Source of the DNA: Trueperaceae bacterium
Lineage (GTDB): Bacteria; Deinococcota; Deinococci; Deinococcales; Trueperaceae
Reading direction: 5' to 3'
Assembly (NCBI GenBank): GCA_030147925.1
Contig: JASBUK010000049.1
Location: 1-48,052, forward strand
Length of the DNA stretch: 48,052 nt
The notes beneath the pieces are model-generated. The model did no database searches and had not been told where the DNA came from. It was given only the letters and a program-made list of their open reading frames with translations. The position numbers and the translations under genes are program-made. This document shows, piece by piece, positions 4,686 to 45,203 of this stretch. Position 1 is the first letter of the stretch. The number at the start of each line of letters is the position of its first letter.

Positions 4686-5372
4686 ATGAGGCTTAAACTA
4701 AGCCTCATGTTTCCTTTGCGCTCGAGCCTTGTGTCCTTAAGTTTCTGGCGGCGCTTTTTGCAACTCAACTCAGGACTGATGATCTTTGGTCTGGCTATCT
4801 CGCTAATGCTCAAGGCCGGTATTGGCTTAGACCCCTGGTCAGTGTTTCACGAAGGCATGAGCAAACAAACAGGACTGAGCTTTGGGCGCATCACCCAATT
4901 GGTGGGCTTGCTGCTGATTGTCCTTAGCTATCTGCTGCTGCGCAGCAAACCGGGTCTGGGCACGGCGCTAAACATGCTGCTGGTTGGCCCCTGGGTTGAC
5001 TTTTATAGGCTGCAACCCTGGATTCCCGAGGCGCAAGGCTGGCTCTGGGGTATCAGCCAGTTTATGGTCGGCGTCATACTGATTGGTTTGGCCAGCGGTC
5101 TTTACATCGCCGCAAATTTTGGCGCGGGGCCCCGCGACGGCTTTGTTCTGGGTTTGGCGCTCAGGCTAAAGCGTAGTATTCGCCTAAGCCGCGCAGGGCT
5201 CGAGCTCTTGGTGCTAACAGCTGGCTTTTCGCTCGGCGGACCACCCGGACTGGGGACGGTGCTGTTTGCGCTTACTGTCGGTGTGTTTATGCAGTTTTTC
5301 CTAAGGCTGTTTCGCTACCAAGCAAGCGCCCTGCAAACCTCTCAGACAAGCGTTCCCGCGACTGAAACATAG
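4686..5372 (+). CDS. YczE/YyaS-type integral membrane protein
   Basis: This 228-residue protein has about five hydrophobic segments and the features of the YczE/YitT-like family: KAGIGLDPWSVFHEGMS near residue 39-55, a related second half with ANFGAGPRDGFVLGLALR, and an internal repeat pattern (GLDPW / GAGPRDG). Family members are inner-membrane proteins of unknown transport role. ATG 4686 has no clear Shine-Dalgarno, but TAGCTT at 4673-4678 stands 7 bases before it, consistent with a leaderless transcript. ATG 4708 is an alternative start. An R/K-rich region precedes the first membrane segment, and the C-terminus is polar. Confidence 0.75.
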   Translation: MRLKLSLMFPLRSSLVSLSFWRRFLQLNSGLMIFGLAISLMLKAGIGLDPWSVFHEGMSKQTGLSFGRITQLVGLLLIVLSYLLLRSKPGLGTALNMLLVGPWVDFYRLQPWIPEAQGWLWGISQFMVGVILIGLASGLYIAANFGAGPRDGFVLGLALRLKRSIRLSRAGLELLVLTAGFSLGGPPGLGTVLFALTVGVFMQFFLRLFRYQASALQTSQTSVPATET

Positions 5373-5420: not shown

Positions 5421-5903
5421 ATGCCAAAAGCCGCCAACTACTGGCTGATCAAAAGCGAACCGGATGTCTTTAGCTTTGACGACCTCTTAAATAGCCCGGG
5501 GCAATGCACCCTCTGGGACGGCGTGCGCAATTATCAGGCCCGCAATTATATGCGTGATGGTATGAAGTGTGGCGACAAAGTACTTTTTTATCATTCTAAC
5601 TGCCAGCCACCCGCCGTAGTCGGCATTGCCGAAGTAGTCCGCGAAGCTTACCCCGACCCCAGCCAATTTGACCCGGAAAGCAAATATTTCGACGCCAAGG
5701 CCAGCCCGGAAAAGCCACGTTGGCTGGCGGTGGACGTAAAAGCCTTGAGCAAATTAAAGCGTCCTGTCAGCTTAGCTGCCTTAAAACAAGAACCTGAACT
5801 AGCCGGGCTAAAACTGCTGCAACGGGGCAACCGCCTAAGTGTTATGCCACTTGAGCACAAGGATTTTGTAAAGATTGTAGCTATGGCCGAGCAAAGCCCT
5901 TGA
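5421..5903 (+). CDS. EVE domain-containing protein
   Basis: A single EVE domain of 160 residues: YWLIKSEPDVFSFDDLL at the N-terminus, then TLWDGVRNYQARNYMRDGMKCGDKVLFYHS and VVGIAEVV, all hallmarks of the family. EVE domains belong to the PUA-like fold and are thought to read modified bases in DNA or RNA (for example modified cytosine). The specific ligand here is unknown. The gene has its own strong promoter and appears leaderless. It is monocistronic, with hrcA following after about 150 bases under a separate promoter. Confidence 0.9.
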   Translation: MPKAANYWLIKSEPDVFSFDDLLNSPGQCTLWDGVRNYQARNYMRDGMKCGDKVLFYHSNCQPPAVVGIAEVVREAYPDPSQFDPESKYFDAKASPEKPRWLAVDVKALSKLKRPVSLAALKQEPELAGLKLLQRGNRLSVMPLEHKDFVKIVAMAEQSP

Positions 5904-6055: not shown

Positions 6056-7006
6056 ATGAATGAGCGCAGAGCGCATATTTTGGACCTTGTCACCGAAAAT
6101 TATATTAGCTCGGCTCATCCGGTGCCTTCTGCAGTCATCGCGCAACAACTCCAGGTCAGTAGCGCCACCGTGCGCAATGACTTTAGCATGCTGGAGGAGC
6201 GCGGCTATCTTAAACAACCCCACCCCTCGGCAGGGCGTGTACCAACGCGCCTTAGCTATGATCGTTATGCTCGCAAGTTCATCCCGCCCTTTCCTCTGCC
6301 GCCGGGCCAGCAAGAATTCTTAGCAAGTCGTCTTAAAGGCGTACACGGCGATAATCTATTGCAACAAATCGCCAATGTCACCGCCGAGTTATCGGGTTAT
6401 GCCGTGGTGGTCAGTCTGCCGGCAAGCGATGAGCTTTACGCGCACGAAATTCATTTATCAGCCTTATCAGATTCCAGGGTGCTGGCAGTAATCGTGCTGG
6501 AAAACGGCCTTGTCCGCCAACTGATGCTCGAGCTAAACCCTGCACCCAGCAATGCCACCTTAAACGAAGTCGAGCACAGCTTAAGACAACTCACCTTGCC
6601 AATAACCAAAGTGCCTGTCGCCCTAAAAGACATTGCCAAACGTGTCGAGGCAGAACTCGCCCGCACTTTTTTAGCACTGGCTAAAGCCTGGCCCGCTATG
6701 AATCCGGCAAGGCTCTTTTCGCAAGGGTTGAGCAACGTGCTGGCCGAACCCGAATCTGCCGACCCCAATTTTGTGCGGCGGGTTGTAGAGCATGTAGAAC
6801 AGCCTGGTGCTCAAAAACATCCGACCAATAAAGACGAAGACAACTTGATGATTTTCTTAGAGGAAACCCTGGCCTTAGTATCGGCTCGCTTGAACCTCGG
6901 CTCCAGCCAAGCCGAACTTTTGCTCCTTGGGCCTATGCGCATGCGTTATCCACAGACACTGATGATTGCCCACGGCGTCACCGAACTGGTAGCCAGGCGA
7001 ACTTAG
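6056..7006 (+). CDS. hrcA: Heat-inducible transcription repressor HrcA
   Basis: The N-terminal winged helix matches HrcA (RAHILDLVTENYISSAHPVPS, then SSATVRNDFSMLEERGYL and QPHPSAGRVPT), followed by the GAF-like dimerisation body. HrcA normally represses groESL and dnaK operons by binding CIRCE. I chose ATG 6056 (316 residues) rather than the longer TTG-initiated frame at 6020, because the upstream codons overlap the -35/-10 promoter and MNERRAHILDLV is the normal family start. No chaperone gene is adjacent and there is no CIRCE site upstream, so autoregulation is not evident. The C-terminal half is divergent. The 5'-to-3' neighbours have separate promoters. Confidence 0.88.
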   Translation: MNERRAHILDLVTENYISSAHPVPSAVIAQQLQVSSATVRNDFSMLEERGYLKQPHPSAGRVPTRLSYDRYARKFIPPFPLPPGQQEFLASRLKGVHGDNLLQQIANVTAELSGYAVVVSLPASDELYAHEIHLSALSDSRVLAVIVLENGLVRQLMLELNPAPSNATLNEVEHSLRQLTLPITKVPVALKDIAKRVEAELARTFLALAKAWPAMNPARLFSQGLSNVLAEPESADPNFVRRVVEHVEQPGAQKHPTNKDEDNLMIFLEETLALVSARLNLGSSQAELLLLGPMRMRYPQTLMIAHGVTELVARRT

Positions 7007-39912: not shown

Positions 39913-41895
39913 CTAAGGCGCGACAAAATCATTTTGGTACAACTCGTGCCAGCCCCGCAAAACCTCGGCGACACTCCAGGCCTGCGCAAAACAACCGCGC
40001 GGTTCAAAAGGCGCGTCGCCGTCAAAGATCTCGCTGATAGAACCCAGACCGACATCACGCAAATGATGTGATAGCGGAGTCAAATAAGACCAGGCCAGCG
40101 CGGCGTCACCATAAACCCGGTAGTGAGCGCTCACAAACGGCCCCAGCAACCAAGCCCAAACCGTACCTTGATGATAGGCAGCATCACGCGTCAAACGGTC
40201 ACCGCCATAATGACCCCGATAATCCGGATGTTTAGGCGAGAGGCTGCGTAAGCCCTGAGTCGTATACAGCTCGCGAGCACAGACATCCAGCACGGATTTG
40301 GCCTGTTCGGTGGTTAAGAGCTCAAAAGGCAGCGACAGGGCAAAAAGCTGGTTGGGCCGGAGGCTGCTGTCATTATGCGGCAGTTCCAGGGCATCAATTA
40401 CGTCATAGAGATAGCCGCCGTCTGCATACCAGAAACGCCGCCGGAAGCTTGCTGCCACACGCTCAGCTTTGACATCAAACTGAGCAGCCGTCACAGTTTC
40501 TTTCAGGGTGTTGGCAAAAACACTCATTATCTGCAAAGCACTATGCCAAAGGGCGTTTATCTCCACAGGCTTGCCCGTACGCGGCGTGACTACCCAATCA
40601 TTCACCTTAACATCCATCCAGCTAAGCTGCAAGTCCAGCTCACCGGCATAAAGCAAATCATCTGCGGGGTCCACACAAATCCCATAACGCGTGCCGCGCT
40701 CATGCCAGTTGATAATGTCCAACAGTTTTGGATAAAGCTCTTTAACGAGTTGGTTATCACCAGTGAACAAAAAATACCGATAGATGGCCACGAAATACCA
40801 GAGCGTGGCATCTACAGTATTGTATTCAGGCTCCTCGCCCTCGTCGGGGAAACGGTTGGGTAACATCCCCTGGCTGATGTGTTTGGCAAAGGTACGCAAG
40901 ATGCTGGCCGCTAACTCCGGACGTCCGGTAGCCAAAGCCAGACCGGGCAAAGCAATCATGGTGTCGCGGCCCCAATCGGTAAACCAGGGATAACCGGCAA
41001 TTACGCTCTTGCCCTTTCCGCGCTGCACAATAAACTGATCGGCGACCAAAACCAATTGCCGAATCCAGACCGGAGTGATTGCGGGCAGATCGGCAATCAG
41101 TCGCCGCTGGCGTTCCCGCTCCTGCTCAAGGGCTTTATTAGCACTATGGGCTGCAAGCCTTTCAGTAGTGCAGATAAGAGTAACCGTCTCACCGGGCTTA
41201 AGCTCCACTACAAACGTTCCGGGCTGAAAGAGCCGCTCTTCGTCGGGCAAGCCGCGAAAGGCCTCGACTCGGTGATGCAATATTTCCGTCCAACATTCCT
41301 GGGGCTCAAAGCTGCCTTTATCCAGCAACAATCGGTATGGTCGGCGTCCTTCACCGGCATCAAGCTCCACACCCCCCGGTATTTCCTTTGCTCTGATGGT
41401 GTTTCCTAAAAAACCCTCACTGTGATAGTCACGATAGGTGCAAAGTGGCGTCAGGTTCAGCTTTAACGGTTCACTGGCACGACTAAGCGTATAAGTCAGG
41501 TAGGTCGTGTTTTCACCCTGGGCCATAAAGATGCGTTTTTCCAGCCGGGCATCGGCAAAACTATAGCTCGAGCTCGGGATAAGCCCCTCAAGTTCAAACG
41601 ATTCGAGATGTTTGTATCCCTCTGGAGCCAGCCGCCCATCGGTGTATTCACTGCTACTCAGGGGATAATCCTGAGCACCGTAGCTGACCGCTTCGTCAAC
41701 CTTGGCCACCAATACCGTGCGCCCCAAGGGTGGTCTAAGAGCAGCTAAAAGCAGCGCATGATAACAGCGGCTGTTGGCTCCAGCCAGCGTACCCGAGGCA
41801 AAACCACCGATACCGTTGGTCACCAACCACTCACGCCTTATGGCCTCGTCTGCGCGGCTCAACTCGGCTCGGCCTAAACTTACCGCGTTATTCAT
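39913..41895 (-). CDS. Glycogen debranching enzyme (amylo-alpha-1,6-glucosidase type)
   Basis: The 660-residue protein has an N-terminal beta domain (REWLVTNGIGGFASGTLAGANSRCYHALLLAAL) and a C-terminal (alpha/alpha)6 glucosidase domain with VIAGYPWFTDWGRDTMIALPGLALATGR, NTVDATLWYFVAIYRY and GTVWAWLLGPFV. These are hallmarks of the archaeal-type glycogen debranching family (GH133-like). It would hydrolyse alpha-1,6 branch points of glycogen in the cytoplasm. The start has GGAG 10 bases upstream on the minus strand. Confidence 0.93.
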   Translation of the reverse strand: MNNAVSLGRAELSRADEAIRREWLVTNGIGGFASGTLAGANSRCYHALLLAALRPPLGRTVLVAKVDEAVSYGAQDYPLSSSEYTDGRLAPEGYKHLESFELEGLIPSSSYSFADARLEKRIFMAQGENTTYLTYTLSRASEPLKLNLTPLCTYRDYHSEGFLGNTIRAKEIPGGVELDAGEGRRPYRLLLDKGSFEPQECWTEILHHRVEAFRGLPDEERLFQPGTFVVELKPGETVTLICTTERLAAHSANKALEQERERQRRLIADLPAITPVWIRQLVLVADQFIVQRGKGKSVIAGYPWFTDWGRDTMIALPGLALATGRPELAASILRTFAKHISQGMLPNRFPDEGEEPEYNTVDATLWYFVAIYRYFLFTGDNQLVKELYPKLLDIINWHERGTRYGICVDPADDLLYAGELDLQLSWMDVKVNDWVVTPRTGKPVEINALWHSALQIMSVFANTLKETVTAAQFDVKAERVAASFRRRFWYADGGYLYDVIDALELPHNDSSLRPNQLFALSLPFELLTTEQAKSVLDVCARELYTTQGLRSLSPKHPDYRGHYGGDRLTRDAAYHQGTVWAWLLGPFVSAHYRVYGDAALAWSYLTPLSHHLRDVGLGSISEIFDGDAPFEPRGCFAQAWSVAEVLRGWHELYQNDFVAP

Positions 41896-42308
41896 CTCAG
41901 ATCAGCTCCGAAAAACTAACTTTTGTCAAATATGCCGAATCTTCAAACAGTTTGTTTTCAGGCAGGATACTCAAGGACGGAGAACAAGCCCTGACGTATC
42001 CCAAATTATTTGTATTAAAACTATCACGTACTTATCGATAGCTAAATGTGTGAGGTAGGCGCGAATCTCCGCCACTTCCAGATACTTAGGATGATGTTTG
42101 CCGTAAAAGCAGATGTAATCTACAATGTAGTGCAAGTAGGACTACTCAGTAGGTGTTTCAAGCGGATAGTTCAGCGCACGTCGTTAAGGGAGTTAAGGGA
42201 GGGGGATGTTTTGGGTGAGTACTATTTCCTGGTTTTACGATTCTCATACATGGCAGCATAAACGCTCCCTAGAGGGTTTTATCCGTCTCTTATTACGTGT
42301 AATTACTA
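41896..42308. other. Intergenic region upstream of the cassette
   Basis: About 410 bases without a convincing gene; a 71-codon frame at 42046-42261 has no ribosome site and no recognisable domain. GTTAAGGGAGTTAAGGGAGG at 42181-42200 is a short tandem repeat of GTTAAGGGA. No integron integrase gene is here. The stretch holds no GCTCGAGC. Confidence 0.5.
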
Positions 42309-42309
42309 G

Positions 42310-43249
42310 TTAAACCGCACGCCACATCGCAAACAAAAATAGACACTATGCTTGACTAATGAATCTAAATCTAAACGACAAAGTAGCCATCATTACAGGC
42401 GCAAGCGAAGGCTTAGGAAAAGCAATTGCGCTCAGTCTTTCTCAAGAAGGCGCAAAGGTAGCTATTTCAGCTAGAAGATCCGAGGCACTTAGACAAACCG
42501 CAGAGGAAATTACCTCAATCACAAAACAGCCTGTTCTAACATTTGCTGGTGACATGACAGATGCTACTCAAATTGCAGACTTCATTGAAAAGGTTGTTCA
42601 TGAACTAGGTATGGTACATATTTTAGTCAACAACGTCGGGCAAGCTACTCGAGGAGAGTTACTTTCCCTCAAACAAGAAGATTGGCAGAAAACCTTTGAC
42701 ATCAATTTGCTAAGTGCGGTTAACATCACAACTAAAGTTATCCCTTTAATGCAACGTCAACGCTGGGGTCGAATTATAAATATTTCTGCTTTGTCAGGTA
42801 AAGAGCCAGGTGAAGAATTAGTGGCTTCTAACGTTGTGAAAGCGGGATTGGTTAGCTTTTCAAAAACCTTGGCTCGAGAGTTAGCGCCTGATAATATTCT
42901 TGTGAACTGTGTTTCTCCAGGTTTAATCGAGTCGCCTCAGAATGAACGTTACTTTTCAGCTCCTGAGCGCGAAGAGGTACTTAGTAAAATACCACTTGGT
43001 AGGTTCGGACAACCTGAAGAATTTGCAAACGTTGTAGCCTTCTTATGTTCAGAACAAGCAAGCTATTTAACAGGTGTAAACTTACTTATTGATGGCGGGA
43101 CAAGTCGGGGGTTATGACCTCATTTCTTGTGCCGTTTAACTAAACACTGCATGGGACGCAGAATCGTCCTGTTCAAAATGCAGAAAGGACTTTACATGCT
43201 TCGAATCGTATCATCCGCTCCCTCTTTCTGCGCCCCTGAGTTCAAGCCG
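42310..43249 (+). mobile_element. Integron-type gene cassette carrying an SDR gene
   Basis: The left boundary is GTTAAACCGCAC (42309-42320), a GTTRRRY core site. Just after the SDR stop lies GTGCCGTTTAAC (43129-43140). Its reverse complement, GTTAAACGGCAC, matches the cassette start at 11 of 12 bases. This is what an integron predicts, because the R'' box of a cassette's attC pairs with the R' box formed by its own first bases. The right boundary is the second GTTRRRY site, GTTAGGT (43249-43255). Cleavage after G in both gives a 940-base cassette with one gene in the usual orientation and little non-coding DNA. No integrase is seen. Confidence 0.7.
42359..43117 (+). CDS. SDR family oxidoreductase lacking the catalytic tyrosine
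   Basis: The 252-residue protein is a classical short-chain dehydrogenase by sequence: TGASEGLG (13-20) binds NAD(P), NNVGQ follows, Asn115 in FDINLL and Ser143 in NISALSG are present, and GVNLLIDGGTSRGL ends the fold. The usual YxxxK is SNVVK, with Ser157 in the tyrosine position and Lys161 retained. Either the activity is altered or the protein belongs to a tyrosine-less subgroup. Codon third positions are more A/T-rich than in neighbouring genes, and no GCTCGAGC occurs. TATGCT at 42347-42352 lies 6 bases before ATG, a leaderless arrangement. Confidence 0.88.
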   Translation: MNLNLNDKVAIITGASEGLGKAIALSLSQEGAKVAISARRSEALRQTAEEITSITKQPVLTFAGDMTDATQIADFIEKVVHELGMVHILVNNVGQATRGELLSLKQEDWQKTFDINLLSAVNITTKVIPLMQRQRWGRIINISALSGKEPGEELVASNVVKAGLVSFSKTLARELAPDNILVNCVSPGLIESPQNERYFSAPEREEVLSKIPLGRFGQPEEFANVVAFLCSEQASYLTGVNLLIDGGTSRGL

Positions 43250-43260
43250 TTAGGTGGCAC
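43129..43260 (+). mobile_element. attC-like recombination site
   Basis: The outer boxes are R'' GTTTAAC (43134-43140, RYYYAAC) and R' GTTAGGT (43249-43255, GTTRRRY). The arms extend as GTGCC...TAAC against GTTA...GGCAC. Inside, GGGACGCAGAA (43153-43163) pairs with TTCTGCGCCCC (43226-43236) at 10 of 11 positions. The centre has further small stems such as GTCCT/AGGAC. The total of ~130 bases and imperfect palindromy fit attC sites, which fold as single strands to recombine. Confidence 0.65.
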
Positions 43261-43292
43261 GACGCGTCTCACTGATCTAAGGAGTGAATGTA

Positions 43293-43697
43293 ATGTTCAT
43301 TGTGCTGCTAGTAGTCACATTTGCAATCGCCGTAATCGTTTCGTTCCTGGTCGTCATACTTTTCCGGAAATCAATAGCCACGATCCGACCAAGAATCGTG
43401 GCCGAGGAGATTAGCCGGGCGTGGTCGCGGTATCTTACATTCGCGATCTACGTTGTGGGGGTGTCCGGCGGCGTACGGGTATGGGACCTAGAGAAGTACA
43501 TCACCCCGAGGCCCAAAGAGGCTGAGGCCATAGTGCTTAACGCCGAGCGTTGGACGTTGGAGGTGTACCGCACTGTCATCGGCACCTTACAAAGTATCGC
43601 GTGGATGCTGCTGGTGTTCTTCGTCTTCGCGCTCATTGCGTACGTGATCGTTCGGGGTCTGGAGGCAAGGCATTCGACGCCGCCTGCAGAGAAGTAG
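43293..43697 (+). CDS. Small membrane protein of unknown function, likely second cassette
   Basis: The ~134-residue protein has a strong N-terminal membrane segment (FIVLLVVTFAIAVIVSFLVVILF), a second (YLTFAIYVVGVSGGVRVWDL) and a third near the end (IAWMLLVFFVFALIAYVIVRGL). I do not recognise a family. AAGGAG at 43279-43284 gives ATG 43293 the better spacing than GTG 43284. Its start is ~40 bases after the attC R' site, typical of the next cassette. A matching second attC was not found downstream, so its right boundary is unresolved. Base composition is GC-rich, unlike the SDR gene. Confidence 0.6.
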   Translation: MFIVLLVVTFAIAVIVSFLVVILFRKSIATIRPRIVAEEISRAWSRYLTFAIYVVGVSGGVRVWDLEKYITPRPKEAEAIVLNAERWTLEVYRTVIGTLQSIAWMLLVFFVFALIAYVIVRGLEARHSTPPAEK

Positions 43698-44162
43698 AAG
43701 ATGGTTCGAGGAGTGACGTGCTGGCACGTCATAACAGGAGCCGTGAGATGGACTATAAGAAGCTCGTGATGCTAACGCTGACTTAAATTCTTTGGTTTGG
43801 TAGATCCAAAGGGCTACAAACACATATTAGAGTGTCAAGGTTTTGCTTTTCTATAACCCTGCACTAGAAACACATAAGGTAAGACCTGCTTAACCCCAGT
43901 CAAAGATGCGGACTCACTTAAGGTGTCCAGTTAATAAGGAAGCTAAGCAGGCGCAGCGATGCAAGAAGCATCTATTTTTTGAAGATGCAGGTGTCTAATC
44001 AAGGCGCTACAAGGGATTTGGGCACGTTCTACCGGAAATCTAAAGTAGGCCTAGAACATACCAACTTCAACCGTCAAAGTACCGAAACCTCTGAGCTTGG
44101 GTGTTAAGTGCGTATTTCAGTGAAATCCAGAAGGTGGTTTTTGGATAAGCGAGCAGCTCGCT
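43698..44162. other. 465-base intergenic region with small hairpins
   Basis: No gene seen. TGACGTGC-TG-GCACGTCA (43714-43731) is an 8-bp hairpin just after the membrane-protein gene. GATGC-AAGAA-GCATC followed by TATTTTTT (43958-43980) is a weak terminator candidate. AGGTGTCCAG at 43921 resembles the AGGTGTCC end of the 85-bp element and may be a remnant of a mobile element. GCTTAAC (43888) and GTTAAGT (44103) fit attC core letters, but their flanks do not pair. Confidence 0.4.
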
Positions 44163-45203
44163 TTAGGAGGCCGCCACACTCGGCCTTGACCGCAGCGCTT
44201 CCCGAAAGGTCACCAAGCGCCGCTGCTTTTCATCCCACAACGCTAGCAAGACCGTTTTTAAGCTGCTAAGCAAGGTGAGCTGGGCAACGCGTTGAAATAA
44301 CGGGTTTTCTTCATGACATTGCTGCAAGTTGTAGTTAGGAATGCGCGGGCTTAAATGGTGAATGTGATGAAAGCCTATGTTGCCCGTGAACCATTGCAGT
44401 ATGCTTGGCAACTTGTAATAAGAACTGCCGTGCATGGCGGCTAAGGTGTAATCCCATTGTGGTGTGTGCTCCCAGTAGGTGCGTTCAAACTGATGCTGCA
44501 CGTAGAACAGCCAGGTGCCAACGCTGGCGGCGATGACGATCACCGGTAAGCCGACCATCAGCACGGCACCCAAACCGACAAATGCACTGGCGGCGGCCAA
44601 CCAACCAGCAATCGCTAAATTGGTCCACCAGACCGAGGTTTTCTCGTCAGTAGGCCAGCTTTTCTTTACTCCCACCGGAAGGCGTTGCATAATGATGAAG
44701 TTGATAGCAGGTGCGATGCCAAAAAGGAAAAAGGGGTTACGAAAAACCCGGTAGACAACCCGCTTCCACCAGCGAGCTTGTAGATACTCGGCGACGGTCA
44801 TGGTCCATACATCACCGATGCCACGCTCCTCGAGTTCGGCGTGGTGTGCGTGGTGAATGGCATGCGTCTTGCGCCAAAACTTGTAGGGCACCAGCGTCAA
44901 GAGACCGCTAAGGATACCCACTGCATTGTTGGCACAGCGCGACCTGAAAAACGATCCATGACCACAGTCGTGCTGGATAATAAAGATGCGTACCAGGAAA
45001 CCTGCCGCTGGCACCGCTAACAGCAAGGTCAGCCAGTAGCCAACGCTTAAGCTCAGGTACATCAGCATCAGACTTAAGAACAGCCCGCCAAATGAATTCA
45101 CCACCTGCCACATGCTTTTGCGAAGGTCTGGCTGCTGGTACTTGCGAACCAAGCTTTGCCAGCCTGAATACTCATGGGTCGGGTTTTTCTTTATCTTGCT
45201 CAT
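44163..45203 (-). CDS. Fatty acid desaturase
   Basis: The 346-residue membrane enzyme has the three histidine boxes of acyl-lipid desaturases: HDCGHG, HAIHHAHH and HHIHHL (in FHHIHHLSPRIPNYNLQQCH). These bind the di-iron centre. The N-terminal sequence MSKIKKNPTHEYSGW is preceded by GGAG on the minus strand about 11 bases upstream, so I start at 45203 instead of 45272. It introduces double bonds into membrane fatty acids, often in the cold; a cold shock gene lies close by. The precise regiospecificity is not visible. Confidence 0.93.
   Translation of the reverse strand: MSKIKKNPTHEYSGWQSLVRKYQQPDLRKSMWQVVNSFGGLFLSLMLMYLSLSVGYWLTLLLAVPAAGFLVRIFIIQHDCGHGSFFRSRCANNAVGILSGLLTLVPYKFWRKTHAIHHAHHAELEERGIGDVWTMTVAEYLQARWWKRVVYRVFRNPFFLFGIAPAINFIIMQRLPVGVKKSWPTDEKTSVWWTNLAIAGWLAAASAFVGLGAVLMVGLPVIVIAASVGTWLFYVQHQFERTYWEHTPQWDYTLAAMHGSSYYKLPSILQWFTGNIGFHHIHHLSPRIPNYNLQQCHEENPLFQRVAQLTLLSSLKTVLLALWDEKQRRLVTFREALRSRPSVAAS

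Follow-up and report, generated by a model that had tools for sequence, protein, structure and literature searches.

The window analyzed here, which is the complete 48,052-base contig C112 of a draft genome of 2.98 Mb in 151 contigs, very probably carries what is left, next to attI, of a degenerate chromosomal integron. The host belongs to the Deinococcota and probably to the Trueperaceae. At the sequence level, the boundaries of a first cassette, a family of attC sites shared with other contigs, a relic of an integron integrase gene (intI), an intact integrase (IntI) elsewhere in the genome, and a relic of an insertion sequence can all be seen. The initial annotation had proposed that a Deinococcota chromosome harbors an integron cassette complete with attC site, and the attC family, the R'/R'' tests, and the intact IntI of the same genome bear this out. 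The features of the locus are collected in Table 1.

Table 1. Integron-related features in the window
Feature	Position	Strand	Description
intI pseudogene, N-terminal fragment	42010..42162	-	in-frame TAG; points away from the cassettes
putative attI region	42163..42309	+	from the intI relic to the GTTAAAC box of cassette 1; cut G^TT 42309/42310
cassette 1, 940 bp	42310..43249	+	TT of GTTAAAC to G of GTTAGGT
short-chain dehydrogenase/reductase (SDR) gene, 252 aa	42359..43117	+	PF13561 E 4e-61, PF00106 E 3e-53
cassette 1 attC	43134..43255	+	R'' GTTTAAC, L'' CTGCATGGGACGCAGAA, L' TTCTGCGCCCCTGAG, spacer TTCAAGCC, R' GTTAGGT
cassette 2 remainder, 3' end and attC lost	43250..43686	+	follows the attC of cassette 1 and opens with TTAGGTGGCAC
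cassette 2 ORF, 137 aa	43284..43697	+	apparently a membrane protein
IS1111/IS110-type relic, noncoding, without transposase	43687..44003	+	apparently replaces the cassette 2 attC

Cassette boundaries and integrase genes

The first cassette is delimited by two complementary boxes. The sequence GTTAAACCGCAC at 42309 and the sequence GTGCCGTTTAAC at 43129 pair at 11 of 12 positions, so that the reverse complement of the latter, GTTAAACGGCAC, agrees with GTTAAACCGCAC at 11 of 12. Both the positions and the degree of match had been annotated correctly. We scanned the window for 12-mers beginning with GTT and complementary at 11 or more positions to a downstream 12-mer ending in RYYYAAC, at a distance of 200 to 2500 bases. 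The 42309/43129 pair was the only one in the 48 kb (it recurs on the opposite strand), and each of 20 shuffles gave none. In the test of circular origin, where the start of a cassette is compared with its own R'', cassette 1 therefore scores 11 of 12. The GTTRRRY box that had been placed at 43249 is present there as GTTAGGT. Another exact copy of GTTAAACCGCAC, at C35:15906, falls within an ordinary coding sequence and was put down to chance.

Immediately upstream of the cassette 1 start, and divergent from it as in a standard integron, lies a nonfunctional relic of intI. The family model TIGR02249 matched 42019–42153 on the minus strand (E 5e-6, with one TAG), and a tblastn search of a 501-base target, with the genome's intact IntI as the query, aligned 51 aa at 57% identity (E 1e-17); the relic encodes residues 10–60 of that protein. 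The earlier statement that no integrase was in view was thus wrong. With a divergent relic that ends ∼150 bases short of it, the GTT box at 42309 most simply marks the end of attI.

These observations bear on a further suggestion of the initial annotation, namely, that IntI inserted a lone cassette into a secondary GTT site other than attI. IntI can use secondary sites, and no intact integrase is found on the window contig, both of which would suit such an event. However, it is made quite improbable by the intI relic a short way upstream, which faces away from the cassette as integrase genes of integrons typically do, and by the start of a second cassette directly next to the first, which single secondary insertions do not yield. 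Because the relic adjoins the SDR cassette and diverges from it, we regard that cassette instead as the attI-side member of an integron in decay.

A search of the genome for intI, which had been recommended as a check, yielded an intact gene and a truncated copy. The intact IntI opens contig C63 (C63:1–938; 312 aa, 455 bits against TIGR02249, whose cut-off is 265). C63 breaks off at the start of intI, and the array belonging to this integrase thus lies outside the contig. C124 opens with the same intI sequence (C124:1–275), truncated after ∼90 codons. The two contigs start with identical intI sequence, and the upstream part common to them (attI and array) is absent from the assembly. In a tree of 82 IntI proteins, the C63 IntI groups (100/99) with those of Meiothermus luteus, Chloroflexota, and cyanobacteria of the Leptolyngbya type. 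Broken integron-integrase-like genes (L115, L114, L116, and L117) occur in several other genera of the family (G008, G020, G009, and G021). Those of G009, G020, and G021 are IntI fragments 57–80% identical to the C63 IntI over 50–84 aa; the G008 copy, at just 33% identity, is possibly not an IntI.

The SDR gene, its attC site, and related sites in the genome

The gene carried by cassette 1 stands apart from its surroundings. Its third-position G+C is 0.312, versus 0.52–0.63 in the neighboring genes, in agreement with the annotated A/T richness, and the contrast with the adjoining cassette 2 ORF (0.70) is sharp. The absence of GCTCGAGC from the SDR region had also been pointed out. It is uninformative, because the 43 copies of GCTCGAGC in the 48-kb window lead one to expect only ∼0.8 in 940 bp. 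When the SDR protein is aligned to solved SDRs, SNVVK occupies the YxxxK position of classical members; the tyrosine is missing too in 6jh7, the closest solved structure. The protein is probably an accessory reductase. Its best-ranked plasmid matches reach at most about 42% identity, and no counterpart above 42% was found among 39 family genomes. For each of the flanking proteins, only two of the 39 had a strong match, one of the two being the window's own genome. The initial annotation had named, as the outcome that would tell against a cassette, an attC model without a match together with an SDR gene conserved between both flanks. What we found is an attC model that matches and an SDR whose identity does not exceed 42% in the 39 genomes.

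The cassette 1 attC has R'' and R' boxes, an L''/L' stem, and unpaired spacers, as expected of an attC site, and its outer complementarity reaches 43129–43260. Inside the R boxes, the stem reads CT[G]CA(T)GGG[A]CGCAGAA / TTCTGCGCCC(C)TGAG. In a hand-written, structure-aware stem scan, the site scored 15.5. Just one other window site exceeded the cut-off of 8, with a score of 9.0, and the maximum among 40 one-strand shuffles was 15.0. The palindrome of ∼130 bases described earlier holds only in part: as a whole, its 132 bases have no folding advantage over shuffled sequence, 23 of 200 shuffles being as good (z −1.3 for the bottom strand), and the signal is carried by the attC-specific structure of its ends.

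A covariance model had likewise been recommended as a check. Our model R2 was built from 18 aligned attC sites in integron loci of other organisms, which were located by IntI similarity, and it comprises the R and L stems with natural loops. Across both strands of the window, its best match was 43134–43255, on the plus strand only, in the orientation expected from the intI relic; the match is weak (12.6 bits, E 0.14; next 8.9 bits), and in the whole-genome search the same site has E 8.35. Its main departures from R2 are a long loop and the pairing of the R boxes, the latter because the R' box of a linear array is part of the cassette that follows. An earlier short-loop model, R1, missed the site, probably owing to the site's ∼70-base loop, and was replaced by R2. 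An Rfam scan of 41800–44300 gave no match, and the hairpin is thus not accounted for by any curated RNA family. R2 by itself does not establish the window attC; sequence similarity to other sites of the same genome does.

Three such similarities were found, to C1:11392–11494 (72%, E 2e-8), to C42:5148–5203 (79%, E 1e-6), and to C116:61788–61817 (93%, E 4e-6). Near matches to the R' end on C52, C116, and others numbered nine versus seven in the control and were dropped. In the whole-genome survey, 150 of 783 first-look candidates were scored, and its totals are lower bounds. The search for further attC sites, again one of the recommended checks, located at least those on C42 (three), C44, C83, C1, and C116. 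R2 matched C42:5725–5816 (E 3e-6), C83:30574–30632 (E 0.0017), C42:6558–6687 (E 0.003), and C44:10816–10874 (E 0.006); weak matches on C8, C132, and C145 were not counted.

Products encoded by cassettes at these sites include NUDIX, AAA kinase, CMD, GNAT, DUF5680, DUF6036, and YoeB proteins. On C42, three tandem attC sites (5145–5261, 5725–5816, and 6558–6687) separate small ORFs, the NUDIX protein, and the AAA-domain kinase. On C44, the CMD-family gene is followed by an attC that overlaps its stop codon and then by the GNAT gene; the DUF5680 gene on C83 and the YoeB toxin gene on C116 each lie 3' of an attC. The end of C116 (L023 864–1381) has YoeB-type toxin and apparent antitoxin genes directly after an interrupted attC, likely a toxin–antitoxin cassette, and a LexA-like gene just beyond the pair. 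Three other cassettes also passed the R'/R'' test, on C42 (11/11 and 12/12) and C1 (9/9), with the pairs GTTGGGCGGCC/GGCCGCCCAAC, GTTGGGCCGCAG/CTGCGGCCCAAC, and GTTAAGCGT/ACGCTTAAC.

With this family in hand, an ordinary horizontally acquired SDR gene next to a chance inverted repeat, with no integron involved, is scarcely credible: SDR genes are very common, the whole hairpin is not unusual, and the best shuffle nearly equals its stem score, but homologous sites stand at other cassette ends in the genome, the 11/12 boundary complement is unique, an intI relic adjoins it, and the attC family and intI genes of the same genome already contradict such an origin.

The second cassette and the IS1111-type relic

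The GTTAGGT box that closes the cassette 1 attC opens a second cassette. The likelier start of its ORF is the ATG at 43293, behind AAGGAG. The product has no Pfam or NCBIfam match, and none in plasmids or viral contigs. No R'' complementary to the cassette 2 start (GTGCCACCTAAC) and no R2 match occur downstream, and a search of 43698–44160 found no attC for this cassette. The relic of an insertion sequence has apparently taken the place of that site.

The relic is 77% identical to C1:9844–10128, a stretch downstream of an IS110-family transposase (PF01548, PF02371), and its first 94 bases are 96% identical to C1:12161–12254, which comes after the R'' of the DUF6036 cassette. An R''-like box appears to precede the C1 element, whose far end seems to lie at TATCAAGGCG, directly against the CTGCATGGGACGC of an attC. 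On C1, around L027 4256–5495, an IS110/IS1111-type element is inserted in an attC. In IS1111-type elements, the noncoding region follows the transposase, and some members target attC (PMC11187229). Like the IS1111-attC elements ISKpn4 and ISPst6 (PMC11187229), the element of this genome has an IS110/IS1111-type transposase with a downstream noncoding region and is inserted at one attC end (on C1 and probably on C116); unlike them, it is a new element in another phylum, and its relic in the window lacks the transposase. Of the three hallmarks of IS1111-attC elements, namely, a DEDD transposase, a downstream noncoding region, and insertion in attC, the C1 copy shows all and the window relic the noncoding part only. 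Judged from its sequence, this element seems to be one that targets attC, in a phylum new for such elements.

It could be argued that the locus is simply an IS1111/IS110-type transposon with cargo, the hairpin being part of the insertion sequence, since an IS1111-type relic is present at 43687–44003 and a related transposase adjoins an attC-like half on C1. This has next to no chance of being correct: the IS sequence lies downstream of cassette 2 rather than at the cassette 1 attC, the intact attC sites of the C42 array have no IS nearby, and, because the element interrupts attC sites at C1 and probably C116, attC would be its target and not a part of it.

A decayed integron in Deinococcota

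The evidence favors the attI-proximal part of a degenerate integron, and the following history would account for it. An integron integrase would have inserted circular cassettes at attI beside its own gene, each by recombination between attI and the folded bottom strand of the cassette's attC. The resulting order would have been intI, attI, cassette 1 (SDR, attC 43134–43255), and cassette 2 (the 137-aa ORF). Afterward, intI may have decayed to a stump of 51 codons with a stop, and an attC-targeting IS1111-type element may have entered the cassette 2 attC, which a later partial deletion would have removed too. We infer from the present arrangement that recombination made the array, and likewise the order of decay and any mobility today. 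Since the genome retains an intact IntI on C63 and cassettes with related attC sites, the surviving cassette could conceivably still be excised in trans.

It is useful to contrast this locus with known systems. It shares with sedentary chromosomal integrons a chromosomal intI, tandem cassettes of accessory genes, and sequence shared among several attC sites of one genome. However, few attC sites were found here, over several contigs, the window intI is a pseudogene, and the C124 copy is truncated. CALINs are clusters of attC sites lacking an integrase, for which IntegronFinder 2 by default asks two attC sites (PMC9024848). As in a CALIN, cassettes and attC occur without a functional integrase adjoining, but only one attC is left at the window locus, which falls short of the two or more without intI that define a CALIN, and the integrase relic is still recognizable. 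A further comparison is with the integrons of Meiothermus luteus (L034) and of G039 (L113, in the same order), whose nearly identical IntI proteins are 64–66% identical to the C63 IntI. The near identity of these two proteins brings Thermaceae into the order of the window's genome and so points to Deinococcota as its phylum. There, R1 attC matches lie beside a full-length intI match (L034 3372–3431, E 0.001; L113 818–874, E 2e-6, the L113 attC being in the R1 training set). Thus, intI adjoins recognizable attC sites in these two loci, whereas in the window it is a stump. Integrons therefore occur in more than one Deinococcota family.

This kind of system is already known; what is unusual is its host group. 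Integrons are best known from Proteobacteria. In a partial literature search, from which we claim no first report, we found no description of an integron for Deinococcota (Truepera, Meiothermus, Thermus, and Deinococcus). Deinococci are not mentioned in the text of the IntegronFinder 2 survey or in the archaeal integron paper, and one Thermus paper applies the term "integron" to a prophage with attL/attR.

The SDR without the usual catalytic tyrosine and the apparent membrane protein of cassette 2 are candidates for functional tests. More broadly, we tentatively entertain the possibility that integrons are old residents of this family, in which the integrase was repeatedly lost, one IntI shuffles scattered cassettes in trans, and attC-targeting IS1111-type elements are the main agent of decay. 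The relics in the window and on C124 and the IntI fragments of G009, G020, and G021 are the losses that would fit such a history. The locus itself is a clear example of integron decay. Overall, a Deinococcota genome with an intact IntI, a decayed intI–cassette locus, and several cassette sites extends the range of integrons.
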